Shown here piece after piece: positions 14,936 to 43,350 of a stretch of DNA of 55,069 bases. Source of the stretch: Bacilli bacterium. GTDB lineage: Bacteria > Bacillota_I > Bacilli_A > RF39 > UBA660. The position numbers were made by a program, and so were the translations under genes. The notes beneath the pieces are model-generated. The model did no database searches, was not told where the DNA came from, and was given only the letters and a program-made list of their open reading frames with translations. The DNA lies in contig JAFWHR010000014.1 of NCBI GenBank assembly GCA_017511945.1, forward strand, positions 1 through 55,069. The letters are read 5' to 3'. Positions within the stretch are counted from its first letter, which is position 1. Each line of letters begins with the position of its first letter.

Positions 14936-14949
14936 GGCATCTTTTTTTT
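14924..14949 (+). terminator. Terminator of the ribosomal operon
   Basis: The GATGC / GCATC stem, with eight bases between, is followed by eight T. It overlaps the rplQ stop codon. The short stem suggests modest strength. Confidence 0.75.
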
Positions 14950-14967
14950 ATAAAAAAGGTGTAAATG

Positions 14968-14976
14968 TGATATAAT
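14968..14976 (+). promoter_or_regulatory. Extended -10 promoter before the 239-residue gene
   Basis: TGATATAAT (TGn + perfect -10, the latter at 14971-14976), with only a poor -35. AGGAGG follows before ATG 14998. Confidence 0.6.
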
Positions 14977-14997
14977 GTTAAAGTAGGAGGGTATGAC

Positions 14998-15717
14998 ATG
15001 AAAAAGAGTTTAATAATATTTATAGTTTTACTATTTGCATCACTAGGACTGTTTACCTTTTCTGATGCAATACTTCCAGAAAAAACAGTAGTAAAAGAAA
15101 AAGAATATAAAGAAAAGTCGCCAGAAAATTTAGAGGAAATAGGAGATAAATTACTTAATATAGTTAATGAATATAATTTATATACATTAAGTGAAAACGA
15201 TAGTATTATATCTTATAGTACTAATTTATCAGAATCACAGATTAAATCAATGTATTTATATTTTAAAAGTAATAATATTATAATTAATAAAGATAACATA
15301 GATAAATACATAAAAGATTTATGTAATGAAATAAATACAGATTATCCAGATATAGTATTTAATCAATATCAAGCTTCAATTGCAACATATGATAAAAAGA
15401 AAAAAGATTACATAGTAAATGAAGAAAACTATGATATTCCTTTAATTAAACCAATTATAATAAAGAAAAATAACATTGAAAAAATAGGAGATAATTACGT
15501 ATTAACAGTATCACTAGTATATAATAACGAAATATCTTACTTCACAGACCCACTTTATAAAAATAAAATCACTAAACTTGATAACAGAGAACTAGAAGAT
15601 GCAAAAACATACTATGAACAAAACTATGAACAGTTTAAAAAAAATAAACCACTTTATAAATATATATTTGAAAAAGAAAATGACACTTTCTATTTAAAAA
15701 TATACGAAACAGAATAA
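14998..15717 (+). CDS. Unknown membrane-anchored or exported protein
   Basis: 239 residues, family not recognised. The N-terminus (KKSLIIFIVLLFASLGLFTF) is a signal peptide or signal anchor without a lipobox. The rest is hydrophilic, Lys/Asn/Tyr-rich, with no cysteine pairs or enzyme motif that I can see. It has its own promoter and AGGAGGG. It lies 16 bases before the VirD4-like ATPase and is probably co-transcribed with it, so it may be its membrane partner. That link is only inferred from position. Confidence 0.8.
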   Translation: MKKSLIIFIVLLFASLGLFTFSDAILPEKTVVKEKEYKEKSPENLEEIGDKLLNIVNEYNLYTLSENDSIISYSTNLSESQIKSMYLYFKSNNIIINKDNIDKYIKDLCNEINTDYPDIVFNQYQASIATYDKKKKDYIVNEENYDIPLIKPIIIKKNNIEKIGDNYVLTVSLVYNNEISYFTDPLYKNKITKLDNRELEDAKTYYEQNYEQFKKNKPLYKYIFEKENDTFYLKIYETE

Positions 15718-15733
15718 TAGAGGAGCTGATAAA

Positions 15734-17662
15734 ATGTTCAAATTTAGAATGATTGCTGAAAAAAGAGAATGGACATTATTTGGAATTTGGTGCTTATTAC
15801 TGATTTATTTAGTTCCAGTTGCCCTTTTAAATCTTCAGCAGTTTTTAAAAGCAGACATGAACAATTTATTTTATGGATTTAATCCATTTCCAGCATTTGC
15901 GCCAGGGTACATTGGATTTACAATACTGTGCTATATATTATCAGTTGCGGCAAGTTTTTACGTGGTTAGAGATAAATTCTTCGAAAAAACAGATAAAAAA
16001 TCAAAAGGATACTCTAGATGGATGACAGAAGCAGAATTAAAAAAAGAATTAAAACAAGTAAACGTACAGGCTGAAAAAGCAGAAGCTGGTGGAATTCCAC
16101 TTATCAATAATGGTAAAAAAATGTGGGTCGACGATGGAGAAGGACACAATATAATTATAGGATCAACAGGAGCAGGAAAAACACAAGTCGCAATTTTCCC
16201 ATTAGTTCACTCACTATCAAAACATGATGAGTCGATGATAATAACCGACCCTAAAGGTGAAATATATGAGACAACTTCAGACATGTTAAAGAAAAAAGGA
16301 TATAATGTAGTACTATTAAACTTTAGAAATCCACAGAATGGAAGTGGATGGAATCCTATGCACCTACCATATAAATACTTCAAAGAGGGAAATGTAGATA
16401 AAGCAAACGAACTTACAGATGACCTTGCAATGAACATATTATATGATGAAAATGCTCAGAGCCAAGATCCCTTTTGGGAAAAAACATCAGCCGATTATTT
16501 TTCAGGAATATGTCTAGGACTATTTGAAGATGCAAAAGAAGAAGAGATTAATCTAAACAGTGTTAATCTATTTACGACAGTTGGTGAAGAGAAATGCCCG
16601 CCAAATTCAGTATACGTAAATGAATACTTCAAAAGCAAAGATCCAAACAGCCCAGCGTATATTTCAGCCTCATCGACAATAGTATCACCAAAAGATACAA
16701 GAGGAAGTATATTATCAGTATTTAAACAAAAAATCAGACTATTTGCTGCAAGAGAAAACTTATCAGAAATGCTTTCACATAGTGACTTTGACTTTGAAGA
16801 TATAGGTAGTAAAAAGACAGCTGTATTTATAATAGTTCAAGATGAAAAAAAGACTTATCATTCACTTGTTACAATATTTCTTAAACAGTGCTATGAAGCT
16901 TTAGTAGATTATGCACAAAAAAATGGTGGAAAACTTCCTTATAGAACTAATTTCATACTAGATGAGTTTGCCAACATGCCACCATTAAAAGATGTTGATG
17001 CAATGGTTTCTGCCGCAAGATCTAGAAGAATGAGATTTTATTTTGTAATCCAAAACTATGCTCAACTTTCAGAAGTATATGGCAAAGAAAAAGGAGATAC
17101 AATTAGAGGTAATTGTACAAATATCTTATATTTAATTAGTACAGAATTAGAAGCGCTAAAAGAAATATCAGAAATGTGCGGAGAATATGAAATAAAAGAA
17201 AAAGATAAAGATGGAATAGAACACAAAGAGACAAGACCACTAATTACAGTAAGTGATCTACAAAGATTGAAAATGGGTGAAGTAATACTTCTTAGACTTA
17301 GAATGAATCCATTTAAAACCAAACTAAAACTAAATTATCAAATTAACTGGGGAGAGTCAGAAGGTCAAGGAAAAGTAGAATATCCACAAAGAGAAAAAGA
17401 AAAAGTACATATATTTGATTTAAAAGGATATGTAGATAAAAAAAGAGAAGAAAGACAAAAAAACTTATTAAATTCACTTAGTGGAAACAATAATACATTT
17501 CAAAATAAATCAATACAAAGTCAAAATGTACTTCCAAATTTAAACACTTTAAATAAACCTAAAACAGCAGAAGATATTTTGAAAAACCTAGATAGAAAAA
17601 TAGAAAATATCTCCAAAAAACAAGAGCCAGATTTAATGAAACCAATGAATGATGATAAATAA
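15734..17662 (+). CDS. Orphan VirD4/TraG-type coupling ATPase
   Basis: 642 residues. Two N-terminal membrane segments (about 16-38 and 55-76) precede a P-loop ATPase: Walker A GSTGAGKT at 143-150, MIITDPKGEIYE just after, Walker B in NFILDEFANMP near 408-418, and ARSRRMRFYFVIQN. This is the hexameric coupling-protein family that passes DNA-protein or protein substrates to a type IV secretion channel. Here there is no relaxase, VirB4, VirB6 or mating-pair gene nearby, only the anchored protein upstream. The C-terminal 100 residues are a low-complexity Asn/Lys tail. It may be a core-genome protein exporter or DNA pump, or a remnant of an old element. The family is sure; the role is not. Confidence 0.9.
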   Translation: MFKFRMIAEKREWTLFGIWCLLLIYLVPVALLNLQQFLKADMNNLFYGFNPFPAFAPGYIGFTILCYILSVAASFYVVRDKFFEKTDKKSKGYSRWMTEAELKKELKQVNVQAEKAEAGGIPLINNGKKMWVDDGEGHNIIIGSTGAGKTQVAIFPLVHSLSKHDESMIITDPKGEIYETTSDMLKKKGYNVVLLNFRNPQNGSGWNPMHLPYKYFKEGNVDKANELTDDLAMNILYDENAQSQDPFWEKTSADYFSGICLGLFEDAKEEEINLNSVNLFTTVGEEKCPPNSVYVNEYFKSKDPNSPAYISASSTIVSPKDTRGSILSVFKQKIRLFAARENLSEMLSHSDFDFEDIGSKKTAVFIIVQDEKKTYHSLVTIFLKQCYEALVDYAQKNGGKLPYRTNFILDEFANMPPLKDVDAMVSAARSRRMRFYFVIQNYAQLSEVYGKEKGDTIRGNCTNILYLISTELEALKEISEMCGEYEIKEKDKDGIEHKETRPLITVSDLQRLKMGEVILLRLRMNPFKTKLKLNYQINWGESEGQGKVEYPQREKEKVHIFDLKGYVDKKREERQKNLLNSLSGNNNTFQNKSIQSQNVLPNLNTLNKPKTAEDILKNLDRKIENISKKQEPDLMKPMNDDK

Positions 17663-25133: not shown

Positions 25134-25619
25134 ATGAATAACTATTTCAATATGATTAAAAGTCAAAATGAAAAATCAAACAAAAGTGATATAAAACTAA
25201 AAAACAAACTAAAAAAACAAGCTGGAGATAACATGACCTTTAATATGCCCGGTTATAATAATGACTCAAATCCATCAAATCTTTACGACGTATATAACGG
25301 TTTTATAAGAGGAAATATGTTTAAACAGCTTTATAATAGGTACAAATTAGATAGACCATATGACGTTAAACCAATGAATAGACAAGCAGAAATACTAACA
25401 AAAGTCGATGCATATTGTTTTGCTGCTCATGATTTAAATCTATATTTAGATACACATCCAAACGATAGAGATATGATAAAACTGTTTAAAGAACTGTCTG
25501 AAGATTCTAAACAGGCAGTAAGAGAATATGAAAAAGACTATGGACCACTATTTGTTGATTCAAGTACTTCATACCCTTGGCAGTGGAACACATCACCATG
25601 GCCATGGGAAAACGATTAA
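25134..25619 (+). CDS. Spore-coat protein, CotJA-like segment fused to CotJB
   Basis: 161 residues. The C-terminal 85 residues match CotJB: MNRQAEILTKVDAYCFAAHD, LYLDTHPNDRDMIK, and the Trp-rich end PWPWEND. Ahead of this lies NGFIRGNMFKQLYNRYKLDR (about 56-75), similar to the short CotJA-type motif that in other spore formers is a separate small gene. The N-terminal 40 residues are Lys/Asn-rich linker. It would be a forespore-surface inner-coat component made in the mother cell. AGGAGG precedes the ATG, and cotJC follows 13 bases later. The CotJB call is strong; the CotJA part is probable. Confidence 0.85.
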   Translation: MNNYFNMIKSQNEKSNKSDIKLKNKLKKQAGDNMTFNMPGYNNDSNPSNLYDVYNGFIRGNMFKQLYNRYKLDRPYDVKPMNRQAEILTKVDAYCFAAHDLNLYLDTHPNDRDMIKLFKELSEDSKQAVREYEKDYGPLFVDSSTSYPWQWNTSPWPWEND

Positions 25620-25632
25620 GGAGGTTTTATAG

Positions 25633-26196
25633 ATGTGGAAATATGAAAAGAAACTGCAGTATCCAGTAAACATAAAAAATAGAGATTTAAATATGGCTAA
25701 AACCATATTGACACAGTATGGTGGACCAGCAGGCGAACTTGCAGCCGCATGGCAATATCTAGATCAAAGATACATAATGCCAGATGATAGAGGAAAAGCC
25801 CTACTTACAGATATTGGAACAGAAGAACTTGCCCATGTAGAAATTATATCAGCAATGTTATATCAACTAATGAAAGGAGCTACCAAAGAAGAATTAAAAA
25901 AAGCTGGATTAGACAGCCAATATGCTCAGTTTGGTAAAGACCTGTTCCCATCAGATGCATTTGGAAATCCATTTACAATGACATATATAAAAGTTTCAGG
26001 TGATTACATAGCCGACATCGAAAGTAATATGGGAGCCGAACAAAGAGCTAGAGCAACCTATGAACACCTAATGGACTTAACAGATGATCCTGATGTGTTA
26101 GGTCCACTTTCATTTTTAAGACAAAGAGAAATAATACACTACCAGAGATTCAAAGAACTGAGAAATTATTATTTAGAAATGAAAACCGACGGATAA
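25633..26196 (+). CDS. cotJC: Spore-coat CotJC, manganese-catalase-like protein
   Basis: 187 residues of ferritin-like four-helix fold. It opens MWKYEKKLQYPVNIK, as CotJC does. Metal-ligand motifs are visible: GELAAAWQYL, GTEELAHVEI (Glu and His), and the C-terminal REIIHYQRFKEL with Glu-x-x-His. Predicted to be a manganese catalase in the spore coat. AAGGAGG precedes the ATG. It forms a two-gene operon with the CotJA/B fusion. Confidence 0.94.
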   Translation: MWKYEKKLQYPVNIKNRDLNMAKTILTQYGGPAGELAAAWQYLDQRYIMPDDRGKALLTDIGTEELAHVEIISAMLYQLMKGATKEELKKAGLDSQYAQFGKDLFPSDAFGNPFTMTYIKVSGDYIADIESNMGAEQRARATYEHLMDLTDDPDVLGPLSFLRQREIIHYQRFKELRNYYLEMKTDG

Positions 26197-32829: not shown

Positions 32830-33687
32830 ATGAAAAAGAAATGTTTATTTTTACTAGCGCTTATCTGCCTATTATCATGTATCATAAATATAACTCCGCA
32901 AGGAGTAAAAGCAGACTCAGGTTTTGATTCAAGTTACAGTAGTGGCTCATCAAGTTCAGGTTCATCTTGGAGTTCATCTTCATATTCCAGTGGCTCATCA
33001 AGTTCATATCATAGATATGGTTCTTCTAATTATAATGACTCAGACTTTGTCGCAATGCTCCCAATAATCGTATTTATTGTAATTATGATTATAATAGCTA
33101 TAAGAAATCAAAATAAAACTACCTATACACCATTTAAACTAGATCACTCTAAAGAAGTGCCAGATGAAAAAGTAAAAGAATTTATAGAAGACTTTGATAA
33201 AAATACATTCTTAAATGATAGATTTAACGACTATAAAAAAGTTCAAGAAGACTGGATGAACTTTAACTATGACAGTTTAAGAGAAAACCTAACAGATGAA
33301 CTATATAACCAGTACGAGATGCAGTTAGATACACTAAAAGCAAAAAATCAAAAGAATGTCATGACTAATATTAATTATCATGATTCAATGATTACCGATA
33401 TTAATAAAGAAAATGGACTAATAACTGTAACTATGGAAATGTTAGTATCACAAATTGACTACTTAGAATCAGATGGAAAAGCAGTTAGAGGAAATAAAAA
33501 CATACCTATGAATATGCATTATGAATTAAAATTTGTTCTAACAGATATTGAAATAAACACCTGTCCAAACTGCGGAGCAAAACTAAATGCATCAGCATCC
33601 AACAAATGTGAATATTGCGGAAGTGTAGTATCAAAAGTTGGAAACAAGGCAGTACTAAGTAAAAAGGAGAATCTAAGACAAAAATGA
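32830..33687 (+). CDS. Tim44-like zinc-ribbon membrane protein, paralogue 1
   Basis: 285 residues. A signal-like N-terminus (FLLALICLLSCIINITP) is followed by a Ser/Gly/Tyr-rich stretch (about 30-70), a membrane segment near 77-95, a Tim44-like domain with FLNDRFNDYKKVQEDWMNFN and LTDELYNQYEMQL, and a zinc ribbon (CPNCG and CEYCG, about 240-262). Tim44-like domains bind membranes or unfolded chains in other systems. It resembles the 34285-35193 gene along its whole length. AAGGAG precedes the ATG. The function is unknown. Confidence 0.85.
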   Translation: MKKKCLFLLALICLLSCIINITPQGVKADSGFDSSYSSGSSSSGSSWSSSSYSSGSSSSYHRYGSSNYNDSDFVAMLPIIVFIVIMIIIAIRNQNKTTYTPFKLDHSKEVPDEKVKEFIEDFDKNTFLNDRFNDYKKVQEDWMNFNYDSLRENLTDELYNQYEMQLDTLKAKNQKNVMTNINYHDSMITDINKENGLITVTMEMLVSQIDYLESDGKAVRGNKNIPMNMHYELKFVLTDIEINTCPNCGAKLNASASNKCEYCGSVVSKVGNKAVLSKKENLRQK

Positions 33688-34220
33688 CAGTAGAACAGTT
33701 AATACAAAAAGATAATTCATTTTCGGAAAGTGGCTTTATCTCAAAAGTAGATAATACATTTATAATGCTATTGTCAGCAATAATGACAGATAACATGCCG
33801 AGAGTAAAACATAAAATAAGTGATGAACTATACAATAAATACACAAATTACGTAAACGAATTAAATAGTAAAAATACTCGTCAAATGTATGATGAGTTAA
33901 ATGTTAAATCAACACACATAAATGAAATAACAGAAGATGAAGAAAACTATATAATAAAAGTACTTTTAGTATCTAGATACATGGACTATTTAGCAGATAA
34001 AACTACATTTAAATTAATATCAGGAAACAATACCTCTAGAGTAGAAAAAGACAACATACTTACTTTTAAAAAGAGAAAAAACGCTCAAACAGAATCATCT
34101 GCAAGAGTGTGTCCATCATGCGGAGCAAACATCGATGCCAATAGTACTGGTATATGTCCATATTGCGGTTCGTCTTATAATACAGAGAGTTACGATTGGA
34201 TACTTACAGATATTGGGTGA
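33684..34220 (+). CDS. Tim44-like zinc-ribbon soluble protein, paralogue 2
   Basis: 178 residues, without signal peptide, Ser-rich part or membrane segment. It shares the ISDELYNKYTNYVNELNSKN pattern with its neighbours and ends in a zinc ribbon (CPSCG and CPYCG, about 142-161). The start overlaps the previous stop (ATGA), so the two are translated together. It looks like the cytosolic half of the paralogous membrane proteins, perhaps a partner subunit. The function is unknown. Confidence 0.83.
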   Translation: MTVEQLIQKDNSFSESGFISKVDNTFIMLLSAIMTDNMPRVKHKISDELYNKYTNYVNELNSKNTRQMYDELNVKSTHINEITEDEENYIIKVLLVSRYMDYLADKTTFKLISGNNTSRVEKDNILTFKKRKNAQTESSARVCPSCGANIDANSTGICPYCGSSYNTESYDWILTDIG

Positions 34221-34284: not shown

Positions 34285-35193
34285 ATGAAAAACAAACACT
34301 TTATATTAATAATGACAATAGGAATATTGCTAATAGGACTAAGTACATATAAATCAATAGAAGTTAAAGCTGATTCAGGATTTGATACTAGTTATAGTTC
34401 TGGAGGATCAAGTTCAAGCTCACATTCTAGTTCAGGCTTTTCATCAAGTAGTTCATATAGTTCAAGCAGTTACTGGGGAAGTAGTAACTATGAAAGACGT
34501 GACCCGGAAAGCTGGGAAATAATATCGGCACTAATCGTCCTTATTGTAGGAATAATAATTGTATTTAAAAAAGCCGGTTTTAAAAAAGAAGATTTTATAA
34601 AATTAAAAGAAGCAAGTGAAAAATATGCTGAAGAGTATAAAAATGCACAAAAATATGCGGGAGAACAAAGAAAAGAAAAACAGAAATTAATTGAAAAACA
34701 CATTAAAACTGATATAAATGTATTTTTAAACGATAGATACTTAGACTATTTAAAAGTTCAAGAAGATTGGATGAACTTTAATTATGAAGGATTAAGAGAA
34801 ATTTTAACAGATGAATTATACAATCAATATAAAATGCAGTTAGAAACCCTAAAAGAAAAAAATCAAAAAAATGTAATGAAAAGATTTAAATATATAGGTT
34901 CTTACATACTAGATATTTATGAGGAAAGTGAAAGAGTAGTAATTATAGTAGAACTAATCGTATCATTTGTAGATTACATAGAGCAAAACGGAAAAGTTGT
35001 TAGAGGTAAACGATTTAAGAAAATCACACATGACTATTTGCTACACTTTATTAAGAATACTAAAACAATAGATAAATGCCCAAACTGCGGAGCAAAAATA
35101 GAAGATAATAAATGCAAATACTGTGGAAGTATAATTCCGACAGCAAATAATAAATGGCTACTTTCTAAAAAGAAAAGTCTAAAACAAAAATAA
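34285..35193 (+). CDS. Tim44-like zinc-ribbon membrane protein, paralogue 3
   Basis: 302 residues with the same layout as paralogue 1: signal-like segment (ILIMTIGILLIGLSTY), Ser-rich stretch, membrane helix near 78-94, a charged coiled linker (KLKEASEKYAEEYKNAQKY), a Tim44-like domain (FLNDRYLDYLKVQEDWMNFN) and a zinc ribbon (CPNCG and CKYCG, about 266-283). Unlike paralogue 1 it has its own strong promoter. There is only a weak ribosome site (AGGGTAG). The duplication suggests adaptation or heteromer formation. Confidence 0.85.
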   Translation: MKNKHFILIMTIGILLIGLSTYKSIEVKADSGFDTSYSSGGSSSSSHSSSGFSSSSSYSSSSYWGSSNYERRDPESWEIISALIVLIVGIIIVFKKAGFKKEDFIKLKEASEKYAEEYKNAQKYAGEQRKEKQKLIEKHIKTDINVFLNDRYLDYLKVQEDWMNFNYEGLREILTDELYNQYKMQLETLKEKNQKNVMKRFKYIGSYILDIYEESERVVIIVELIVSFVDYIEQNGKVVRGKRFKKITHDYLLHFIKNTKTIDKCPNCGAKIEDNKCKYCGSIIPTANNKWLLSKKKSLKQK

Positions 35194-38090: not shown

Positions 38091-38705
38091 ATGTCAAAGC
38101 TAAGTAATAAAGCAGTTGTGACAATATCGATATCACTTGTAATAATTGGTCTTCTTATATTCTCGAGCGACTATTTAAAATCAAAAAAAGAAAAAGCATA
38201 TGAAAAAGTAAGAATTTCACTTCAAACAGAGAAAGAAGATAATACGCCAAAAATAGTTGAAGAAGAACCTAAAATAGAAGAGCCAGTAGAAGTATTACCA
38301 AATGGATATTTAGGAATACTCACAATAGAAAAGATAAATCTCCAGCAAGGATTTTATGATAGAGATAATCCAGAAAACAACGTAGATAGAAATATTACAT
38401 TCCTAGATCCAACAAATTATCCTGACGAAAAAAACGGAAATGTATTCTTAGTGGCCCACTCAGGTTCCAGTTCAATTGCCTATTTTAAAAATCTATACCA
38501 ATTAGAAATAGGTGATATAGCATCAATAAGATACAAAGGAAAAACTTATACATATAAAATAGCAGATATATATACCGATATAAAAGATGGAACAGTAACA
38601 ATCTATAGAGATAAAAATAGATCAACCCTAACAATGGTAACATGCACTAAAGATGATGAGACGAGACAAACTATTTATATAGCCTATTTAGAAAGTGTGA
38701 ATTAA
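38091..38705 (+). CDS. Sortase (class D-like)
   Basis: 204 residues. An N-terminal signal anchor (about 8-26) and an acidic linker precede the sortase barrel. The catalytic triad is His123 (VAHSG), Cys185 (MVTCTK) and Arg192 (DDETRQ). It would join LPxTG-type proteins to peptidoglycan or to each other outside the cell. No gene with an LPxTG tail is found in the window, so substrates are elsewhere. AAAGGAG precedes the ATG. Confidence 0.93.
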   Translation: MSKLSNKAVVTISISLVIIGLLIFSSDYLKSKKEKAYEKVRISLQTEKEDNTPKIVEEEPKIEEPVEVLPNGYLGILTIEKINLQQGFYDRDNPENNVDRNITFLDPTNYPDEKNGNVFLVAHSGSSSIAYFKNLYQLEIGDIASIRYKGKTYTYKIADIYTDIKDGTVTIYRDKNRSTLTMVTCTKDDETRQTIYIAYLESVN

Positions 38706-38720
38706 CACAAAAACATCAAT

Positions 38721-38749
38721 TTGACGAAAATGTATAAAAATGGTAAAAT
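38721..38749 (+). promoter_or_regulatory. Promoter of lysozyme-like gene 1
   Basis: TTGACG (38721-38726), 17 bases, TAAAAT (38744-38749), with TGG before the -10. Same design as the promoter of gene 2. Confidence 0.7.
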
Positions 38750-38789
38750 ACTCACCGCTGTCTGAAAAAATATTCAAAAGAGGTGAAAA

Positions 38790-39524
38790 ATGAAAACTGA
38801 ACATATGATTAAGACATTATTAATCTTAATCACATTAACAGTTGCGATGAGTATTCATCCATTAATCACTGATGCATTAAACAGTGTAGATAGTGATAAT
38901 TTATCAAAAATACCTTCTAATAAGAGACTATTAAAAACACCAAACGAACTAAAATTAGAGATGAGAACTGATGAATTAAAGAAAATAAGAGAAGAAAAGA
39001 AAAGGGCTGAGGAACTCCAAAGACAAAAAGAAGAAGAAGAAAGAAGATTAGAAGAGGAAAGAATAAGAGCAGAAGAAGAGCAAAGAAGACAAGAAGAACT
39101 TCAAAAAGAAGTATACAATGGATTATCCTTAGGAGAACTTACAGATAAATTAAATCGTTCCCTAAACTCCACATTATCAGGTAAAGGTGAAAACTTTGCA
39201 AGATTATCATCAGAATATGGAGTTGATCCGTATCTTGCAGTGGCCATAGTAATGTTAGAAACAGGGTGTAAGTGGGAATGTAGTAACCTTGTTAAAACTT
39301 GTAACAATGTAGGTGGTATGAAAGGTGCCGGAGGATGTGGAGGCGGAGAATATGCCGCATTCCCATCACTTGATGAGGGAATAGAATCATTTATGAGTAA
39401 TCTAAATAGAAACTATTTCGCATATGGGTTAACCACACCAGAATCAATGGGTTCAAAATATGCAGCATCTACTACCTGGGCAGCACAAGTTAGAAGTTAC
39501 ATGAATGAAATAGAGGCTAAATAG
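38790..39524 (+). CDS. Membrane-anchored glucosaminidase/lysozyme-like protein 1
   Basis: 244 residues. N-terminal anchor (about 8-26), then a highly charged Glu/Arg coiled coil (58-107), then a lysozyme-like domain: YGVDPYLAVAIVMLETGC with probable catalytic Glu157, CNNVGGMKG, and a TTWAAQVRSYMNE end. Four cysteines (160, 164, 171, 183) could form disulfides outside the cell. It likely cuts glycan strands of peptidoglycan. It is a paralogue of 39701-40384 and lies directly after the sortase, but has no sorting signal. Confidence 0.85.
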   Translation: MKTEHMIKTLLILITLTVAMSIHPLITDALNSVDSDNLSKIPSNKRLLKTPNELKLEMRTDELKKIREEKKRAEELQRQKEEEERRLEEERIRAEEEQRRQEELQKEVYNGLSLGELTDKLNRSLNSTLSGKGENFARLSSEYGVDPYLAVAIVMLETGCKWECSNLVKTCNNVGGMKGAGGCGGGEYAAFPSLDEGIESFMSNLNRNYFAYGLTTPESMGSKYAASTTWAAQVRSYMNEIEAK

Positions 39525-39642
39525 TCTCTTTTTTCATTTTTAGAGAGATTATAAAATAATTATAATTTTCACAAATAATCTAGCCCTTTATTATTCAATA
39601 ATTTATAGTTGATTTAAAAAAACGAAAACAATTTTACACAAT

Positions 39643-39671
39643 TTGACACAAAAAAAATTATATGATAAAAT
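39643..39671 (+). promoter_or_regulatory. Promoter of lysozyme-like gene 2
   Basis: Perfect TTGACA (39643-39648), 17 bases, TAAAAT (39666-39671), with TGA before the -10. The remaining 39525-39642 stretch is AT-rich with no other feature. Confidence 0.8.
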
Positions 39672-39700
39672 TAACATCAGAAAAGTAGGAGAGATGATCT

Positions 39701-40384
39701 ATGAATTTAAATAAAAAAGTTACAGGTATTGTAATCTTTGGAGTAGTCCTTTCACTAGTACTTCCACATTTAATAACAAACTTAACATCAAAGTCATTAA
39801 ATTCAAAAAAAGCACACCTAGTTAATAGCTCATCAAAGGCAAGTCCAGATAGTGTTGCCATAAATACAAAAAAGGATTCAGCAGTTCCAACGGTTAAACA
39901 AACAGCTGAACCAGAAGTTAAAGAAGAAGCACCAGTAGAAGTAGAACAGCAACCCCAACCTGTACAAGAAGAAGTAAAACCAATTGTATATGATGGTATG
40001 ACATTAGATGAACTCGCACAAAAATTAGATAGATCACTTAAATCTACTCTTTCAGGAAAAGGTATGACATTTGCTACACTAGCTATAGATTTAGGTATTG
40101 ATCCATACCTATCACTAGCCATTGTTTTAGAAGAAACAGGTTGTAGTTATAATTGTTCAGCTGCAGTTAACAATAAAAACAATGTTGGAGGCATGATGGG
40201 TAGCGGAGGATTACTGTCATTTGAATCATTAGATGCAGGAATATCAGCCTTTATGAATAATTTGAAGAAAAACTACTATGATCAAGGACTTACAACTGCT
40301 GAAACAATAAATGGAAAATATGCATCATCAACAGCATGGTCAGGAAAAATAAATAACTATATTGAAAAAATAAGAAATACCTAA
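39701..40384 (+). CDS. Membrane-anchored glucosaminidase/lysozyme-like protein 2
   Basis: 227 residues, tandem paralogue of the preceding gene. Anchor at about 8-26, then a Pro/Glu/Val linker (60-95) in place of the coiled coil, then the same domain: ELAQKLDRSLKSTLSGKG, GIDPYLSLAIVLEETGC with probable catalytic Glu145, and NNVGGMMGSG. Two cysteines (148 and 152) match the first pair of its paralogue. Linker divergence against domain conservation suggests the two act at different distances from the membrane. Confidence 0.85.
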   Translation: MNLNKKVTGIVIFGVVLSLVLPHLITNLTSKSLNSKKAHLVNSSSKASPDSVAINTKKDSAVPTVKQTAEPEVKEEAPVEVEQQPQPVQEEVKPIVYDGMTLDELAQKLDRSLKSTLSGKGMTFATLAIDLGIDPYLSLAIVLEETGCSYNCSAAVNNKNNVGGMMGSGGLLSFESLDAGISAFMNNLKKNYYDQGLTTAETINGKYASSTAWSGKINNYIEKIRNT

Positions 40385-42288: not shown

Positions 42289-43350
42289 ATGAAAAAGATA
42301 TTAACACTTATACTAACGATAATATTATTCATTCCACTAGCTCATGCCAAAACCATAAACCACTCATATGCAGAAGTGGGAAGCAATATAGATTTTAATG
42401 AAAACGTAAATGGTGCATCAGCTCTAGCAGGTGATAACATATCATCAAATGGATATGTTAATGGAATAAATTTAATAGCTGGAAATGACATAGAACTAAG
42501 AGGAACAAGCGAATATGCATTGACCGCAGGAAATGTCATATCGATAAATGGAAATATAAAAAATGATGCATTTATTGCTGGAAATATAGTAGATATAAAA
42601 GAAAAGACAATAATAGAAAGAGACACTATAATAGCTGCATCAGATGTTCAAATATCGGGAGTAATCCAAAGAAATGTAACCATTTATGCGGCAAAAGTAG
42701 ATATCAAATCAGCAAACATTAAAGGAAATGTTAGAATAGTCGCTGAAGAGATAAAAATAGATGATCAGACAAATATTGAAGGAAAACTCTTTTACCCAAA
42801 AGATGCAAAAACTAAAATAAGTAGTAAAATAAAAAATATAACTAAAACACCAGCAATAACAAAAGACAAAGAGACGATTTTAGATATTGTTTTAAATAAA
42901 ATATGGTCAGCCCTATCATTAATATTGATATTTGCTCTATTAACATTATTCACACCAAAAATATTTGAAAAAATAGATTACAAATATGAAAAATTAGGAT
43001 TCAATAAAGTATTAGAACTTTTCTCTAAAGGACTTGTGTTTACCTTAATAGTTCCCGCAATTTCTATATTCTTACTGATGTTTCCATTTACAATTTCACT
43101 ATCACTCATAATGACCGCACTTTATATTATAATAATATACTTATCAAAGATCTTTACCGCATATCTAATAGGATATAAACTTTGGCAAAAGTACATTGAG
43201 AAACAGTACATTCCATTAATATCTGGATTACTGGGATTTACCATATTATTCATACTAGATTTAATACCAATAATTAGTCCAATCATAGTTATAATAAGTT
43301 TAATGATAGGAATAGGAATGATTACCGAAATGTATAAAAAACAATCATAA
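42289..43350 (+). CDS. Bactofilin-like beta-helix protein with C-terminal membrane domain
   Basis: 353 residues. A cleavable-looking signal peptide ending AHA is followed by a region (about 25-170) of repeating short turns such as NGVNLIAGND-type units (AGDNI, AGNDI, AGNVI, AGNIV) that look like a right-handed beta-helix of the polymer-forming (bactofilin) type. Four membrane segments follow at about 205-350. The signal puts the helix outside the cell, unlike cytosolic bactofilins. GAAAGGAC precedes the ATG. The function is unknown; a surface scaffold is possible. Confidence 0.82.
   Translation: MKKILTLILTIILFIPLAHAKTINHSYAEVGSNIDFNENVNGASALAGDNISSNGYVNGINLIAGNDIELRGTSEYALTAGNVISINGNIKNDAFIAGNIVDIKEKTIIERDTIIAASDVQISGVIQRNVTIYAAKVDIKSANIKGNVRIVAEEIKIDDQTNIEGKLFYPKDAKTKISSKIKNITKTPAITKDKETILDIVLNKIWSALSLILIFALLTLFTPKIFEKIDYKYEKLGFNKVLELFSKGLVFTLIVPAISIFLLMFPFTISLSLIMTALYIIIIYLSKIFTAYLIGYKLWQKYIEKQYIPLISGLLGFTILFILDLIPIISPIIVIISLMIGIGMITEMYKKQS

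Follow-up and report, generated by a model that had tools for sequence, protein, structure and literature searches.

A displaced VirD4-type coupling protein as a pointer to a probable resident, relaxase-less type IV secretion system in RF39 bacteria

The window, the whole stretch of 55,069 nucleotides analysed here, contains a 642-residue ORF that is a VirD4-type coupling protein of a type IV secretion system (T4SS), belonging to the CD1115 family. We consider it probable that this protein is part of a resident, vertically inherited, relaxase-less T4SS of a monoderm lineage, that its gene was displaced with loss of the C-terminal tail, and that it likely serves in trans a T4SS block left unassembled beside contig C16 of the same genome. 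The initial annotation had read the gene as an orphan exporter; as such the finding failed, but as a pointer it led to a lineage-wide resident T4SS of RF39, an uncultured order that is abundant in the gut and has reduced genomes and many auxotrophies (PMC6784871). The window genome (G000) is a MAG of 909,893 bp, 85% complete. The genus compared here appears to be the group of Candidatus Coprosoma in GTDB order RF39; Candidatus Coprosoma has been placed in family CAG-822 of that order (PMC8035907), and Candidatus Coprosoma intestinipullorum carries VirD4.

The VirD4 gene and its product in the window

The VirD4 gene (15734..17662) and the ORF of 239 residues ahead of it (14998-15717), both on the forward strand, were each preceded by a purine-rich ribosome-binding site. 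The VirD4 product matched T4SS-DNA_transf (PF02534) with an E-value of 2.5e-57 and 195 bits against a cut-off of 20, scored above the cut-offs of TraG-D_C and TrwB_AAD_bind, and reached 318.5 bits with the NCBIfam profile of the VirD4 CD1115 family (NF045973, cut-off 250). It was the sole PF02534 match in the genome. The membrane anchors and the Walker A and B motifs annotated initially were borne out, as two N-terminal helices at residues 10-38 and 60-77 (15761..15964) were seen both as hydrophobic stretches and in the structure model, and the sequence contains GSTGAGKT at residues 143-150 (16160..16183) and FILDE at residues 407-411 (16952..16966), all on the forward strand. The structure model, for which 34 related sequences were used, had a mean pLDDT of 82.9, and its residues 91-558 shared the fold of Cag-beta (PDB 8dol, Z 32.6) and TrwB (1e9s, Z 27.6), which differ in showing only 14-18% identity and in serving Gram-negative systems with outer-membrane parts. 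The traits of a coupling protein, namely the N-terminal anchor, both Walker motifs, the RecA-like core and the all-alpha domain, were thus all present. A PADLOC match to mad8 (E 1e-8) was rejected as a weak signal common to ATPases, lying far under the CD1115 match.

The ATPase had been described as complete, which held for the core but not for the C-terminal tail kept by the relatives. The complete VirD4 proteins of the genus all carried a long variable tail ending in (V/I)TDDQFFDDFF and acidic residues, also written (V/I)TDDQFFDDFF(A/S/Q)D. The motif was matched in 74 of the 77 complete proteins from named genomes; among the three others, one had a one-residue variant and one had the motif in a separate small ORF at the same locus. 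The protein in the window ended approximately 100-170 residues earlier than its relatives, with a shortened tail (17429..17662, forward strand) devoid of the motif, and no exact coded copy of the motif was present elsewhere in the assembly. The motif seems to resemble a docking site, and its loss could mean a lost or altered function. It would be a defined target for pull-down and deletion experiments.

As annotated, the locus lies between a core ribosomal operon and murE, with rpoA-rplQ upstream and murE convergent downstream; behind VirD4 came the stop codon, then a terminator-like repeat and then murE. The base use, said to be like that of the neighbours, was so for VirD4 (GC/GC3 of 0.309/0.188), whereas the small ORF was distinctly lower (0.211/0.125). 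No other ORF of the window matched the T4SS or Tad proteins of the relatives at an E-value of 1e-3, in agreement with the earlier statement that no T4SS genes are in the 55-kb window.

The T4SS block and the inheritance of VirD4 in related genomes

In the relatives, VirD4 was the last gene of a long T4SS block on one strand. The block comprised about three small VirB2-like membrane proteins, a VirB6-like protein, a PrgI-like protein, a split VirB4, one or more wall hydrolases, a lipoprotein or anchored protein, and VirD4, followed by the housekeeping genes rhodanese-RmuC-RNase R-SmpB, which were named from the sequences as read. In a synteny survey of 80 VirD4 loci from named genomes, VirB4 was located upstream of VirD4 in 56 of the 57 loci that extended far enough, and 54 of 60 had rhodanese or RmuC on the downstream side.

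VirB4 was divided into chains of 184 and 594 residues, and the orthologue of the latter occurred in 29 of 35 genomes of the genus with 79-100% identity. The VirB4 proteins scored above the cut-offs of PF19044 and AAA_10. The best profile for both halves was that of the mycoplasma ICE VirB4 (NF045975, Mbov_0397 family), from which they differ in matching as two collinear chains (347 and 56 bits) under the cut-off of 590 and in lying at a locus without ICE context. The VirB1-like peptidoglycan hydrolases exceeded the cut-offs of Peptidase_C39_2 and NLPC_P60 and had an N-terminal membrane helix. Among the VirB2-like pilins, one member exceeded the PF18895 cut-off (33.5 against 26.6), and 7 of 20 others were matched more weakly, with E-values up to 0.01. 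The identities of VirB6 and PrgI are putative, deduced from position, membrane topology and profile matches under threshold: the large VirB6-like protein lacked a Pfam match and was named from its position and hydrophobic stretches, and the 108-residue PrgI-like protein scored 15.4 bits against a PrgI cut-off of 27. No VirB8 was recognised among the block proteins of the relatives. A PDB search with the model of c3, the anchored protein often encoded just upstream of VirD4, gave no significant match.

A Tad-like block encoding a CpaF/VirB11-type ATPase, CpaB, TadB- and TadC-like proteins and pseudopilin-like proteins was found directly upstream of the T4SS block. T2SSE and RcpC/CpaB were above cut-off in the relatives and on contig C16 of the window genome, while the TadB-, TadC- and pilin-like proteins were assigned from position, size and hydrophobic stretches alone. 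Between VirB4 and VirD4, hydrolase and lipoprotein genes formed repeated, variable pairs in some loci (L131, L133), which would also fit an effector-immunity arrangement. Separately, a short VirD4-like ATPase of 337-375 residues, with the Walker A motif GGYKSGKT and no membrane anchor, was seen in several members of the genus (L068:8200-9300, also L042 and L051), next to a MerR-like regulator and with an apparent D-Ala carboxypeptidase, spmA and spmB downstream. The window itself encodes a 353-residue secreted or membrane protein without Pfam family (42289-43350), whose relatives (36-37% identity) in other genera were encoded immediately ahead of the VirB6-like gene (L172, L179, L189, L190, L195).

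VirD4 orthologues with 55-80% identity were present in 32 of 35 genomes of the genus, and their distances tracked those of rpoA and rplQ (Mantel r 0.76, p 1e-4, 22 genomes). Against most relatives, the ratio of the distance of the window VirD4 core to the rpoA+rplQ distance was at or below the median. The dN/dS value was approximately 0.09, with dS saturated. Accelerated evolution of the window protein was considered from its long-looking FastTree branch and rejected, as the divergence was not raised relative to rpoA+rplQ. The claim that VirD4 is resident was hence upheld, its divergence paralleling that of ribosomal genes and its core being under purifying selection.

As ICEs and plasmids of Firmicutes commonly encode VirD4 proteins of the CD1115 type, the gene could be the leftover of an integrated conjugative element, but we regard this as highly improbable. 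The window protein shares with that family (NF045973) a score above cut-off, the anchors, the Walker motifs and the all-alpha domain; the resident form differs from the ICE and plasmid proteins in the absence of relaxase linkage and in the long variable tail with conserved end found in the relatives. The best plasmid relatives showed identities of no more than about 30%, against 55-80% within the resident form, which occupies one locus across the lineage. The relaxase family PF03432 was detected in 9 of 36 genomes of the genus, on other contigs and in at least 7 of them together with a distinct ICE-type VirD4, these genes forming clusters separate from the resident one. Mob_Pre (PF01076) was detected in 14 of the 36, including one insertion downstream of SmpB in G013. 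Profile searches for these two families found neither in the window genome, nor, apart from the insertion in G013, was a relaxase of either family associated with the T4SS. The patchy spread and varying site of a conjugative element were also not observed, given the occurrence in 32 of 35 genomes and the same flank in 54 of 60 loci. Since the VirD4 distances follow the ribosomal genes and the relaxases lie on other, ICE-like contigs, the T4SS is concluded to be resident and relaxase-less. The non-conjugative role suggested initially is therefore likely.

Displacement of VirD4 and the assembly of the window genome

The placement of VirD4 in the window (DISPLACEMENT) was unusual, being in the rplQ-murE interval and away from the position of the T4SS block. 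The order rplQ-VirD4-murE was found at none of the relatives' loci examined, and neither rplQ, murE nor the 239-residue protein adjoined VirD4 in any of the 80 surveyed loci. The junction behind rplQ (14936..14997) would be one edge of the relocated pair; the stretch 3' of rplQ was variable in the relatives and never contained VirD4. A second displacement was observed in G004, in which VirD4 lies beside an apparent frr, whereas the T4SS block, located on a different contig, has c3 as its last gene and lacks VirD4. The arrangement in G004 indicates that VirD4 can move away without loss of the T4SS block.

The 239-residue protein (14998..15717, forward strand) has one N-terminal anchor and represents a lineage-specific family without Pfam family. 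Its gene lies on the same strand as VirD4 at a distance of 16 bp, and the two are probably co-transcribed in the window. Six relatives had homologues with 27-35% identity, all encoded at unrelated places, and in none of the loci examined did one lie beside VirD4. The idea of an operon partner was thus not supported, and the proposed check, whether the gene pair is conserved at this locus in related genomes, revealed the pair in none. Kinship to c5 or c12 was rejected, with profile probabilities of 16-35% confined to the anchor segments. The family showed a weak similarity to c3 (hhalign probability 75% over 77 columns, background at most 6%). This similarity, together with the 16-bp spacing on one strand, would be compatible with a stand-alone exporter made of VirD4 and the anchored protein. 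We know of no channel formed by VirD4 proteins alone. With the small protein unlinked and the same VirD4 closing a T4SS block in the relatives, the stand-alone exporter of the initial annotation is the least probable of the alternatives considered.

Contig C16 of the window genome carries an intact Tad block, its CpaF being 85% identical. The contig stops just after c38, inside an Rpn-type ORF, where the pilin and VirB genes begin in the relatives; the same kind of ORF occurs at that point in G025 with the VirB genes after it. RmuC and the orthologous RNase R were likewise missing from the assembly. The contig break at the left edge and the missing RmuC and RNase R indicate that the gap spans the whole expected T4SS block, and the failure to find VirB4 in this 85% complete assembly is therefore uninformative. 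No VirB4, VirB6 or pilin gene was seen in the genome, only their expected start point. Accordingly the term orphan does not suit an ATPase whose relatives end a T4SS block, in a genome with a contig break where that block should start. A lone RNase R in the window genome (L093, G000:C5:27987-29831) was 43% identical to the form of the genus and had a different gene context; it is a paralogue or derives from a contaminant contig.

Two other explanations bear on the same gap. The species may first have relocated VirD4 and then lost the T4SS block, leaving a true orphan that was kept for another task or is decaying. The unseen VirB4, the loss of the tail motif, of which the assembly has no coded copy elsewhere, and the lack of both VirD4 and VirB4 in G022 (91% complete), which suggests that losses may happen, agree with this explanation. 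We nevertheless judge it unlikely, as the assembly also lacks the genes on the block's flanks, the Tad contig ends at the left edge of the block, and the core of the window VirD4 is as constrained as in species bearing the T4SS. Moreover, VirB4 was also unseen in G005 and G014, where VirD4 is at a contig edge, because of assembly breaks. Alternatively, the rplQ side and the VirD4 side may be joined by chimeric assembly, VirD4 still being within the T4SS locus in the cell. The ordinary intergenic sequence on either side of VirD4, without rhodanese after it or the usual c3/c5 before it, and the clean substitution of the tail by a stop codon followed by a terminator-like repeat ahead of murE argue against a chimera, as does the independent displacement in G004 with the T4SS left behind. 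Even for a MAG of 28 contigs with 1.8% contamination and an arrangement unique among relatives, a chimera is thus quite improbable.

Proposed working and comparison with known systems

In the preferred reading of a resident T4SS with a displaced coupling protein, a membrane-anchored VirD4 hexamer would bind a putative protein substrate, and VirD4 and VirB4 would drive it through a VirB6/PrgI translocon for which the wall hydrolases may open the peptidoglycan. The VirB2-like pilins and the adjoining Tad-like fibre may contact another cell or a surface. In the window genome, VirD4 would have been relocated to the rplQ-murE interval behind the unrelated gene for an anchored protein, losing its disordered tail, and would most likely serve in trans the T4SS block in the unassembled stretch next to C16.

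To our knowledge, Gram-positive T4SSs are known nearly exclusively from conjugation. Dedicated effector translocators in Gram-positive bacteria are a long-standing question, and Patescibacteria are the one known exception for VirB2-type subunits (PMC12857230). The T4SS on the 89K island of Streptococcus suis has been reported to secrete protein (PMC12857230); it differs from the present system in its location on a transferable island and in that no VirB2-like pilins are reported there. The nearest known counterpart is the resident T4SS of Patescibacteria, which is chromosomal and mostly lacks a relaxase; its pilins are VirB2-like, hydrolases are encoded close to VirB4, and the coupling gene is frequently remote from virB4 (PMC12102498). 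The system is essential for the epibiotic growth of Ca. Southlakia epibionticum (PMC12857230). The RF39 system would share with it a chromosomal, lineage-wide and mostly relaxase-less state in reduced genomes, MPF-FATA-like VirB4, PF18895-type VirB2-like pilins, wall hydrolases encoded close to VirB4 and co-occurrence with a separate pilus system, and the distant coupling genes of Patescibacteria recall the displaced VirD4. It differs in the phylum, in the split VirB4, in the conserved C-terminal motif of VirD4, and in that VirD4 normally ends the same block, with a Tad-like block adjoining.

A broader reading is possible but rather doubtful: a Tad pilus and a relaxase-less T4SS with VirB2-like pilins would be fixed throughout RF39 for contact-dependent exchange with cells, in parallel to Patescibacteria, with the VirD4 motif as docking signal and the window species as a displaced, tail-less case. 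No description of an RF39 T4SS was found in the open-access literature, and subscription journals could hold one. If true, an RF39 T4SS with VirB2-like pilins would be a second case in a phylum other than Patescibacteria, and a lineage-wide system would suggest that RF39 cells rely on cell-cell contact.

Several other genes of the window were recorded. CotJB and manganese-catalase (CotJC-like) spore-coat genes were located at 25134-26196 in this genome of about 1 Mb, and relatives also carried spmA/spmB and GerA-like receptor genes (L068:14153-17861). A sortase gene was followed by two genes for glucosaminidase-domain proteins (38091-40381). Two Tim44-like-domain proteins with zinc ribbons, one having a Ser/Gly-rich N-terminal part, were encoded at 32830-34220, and a third ORF similar to this pair was located at 34285-35193.
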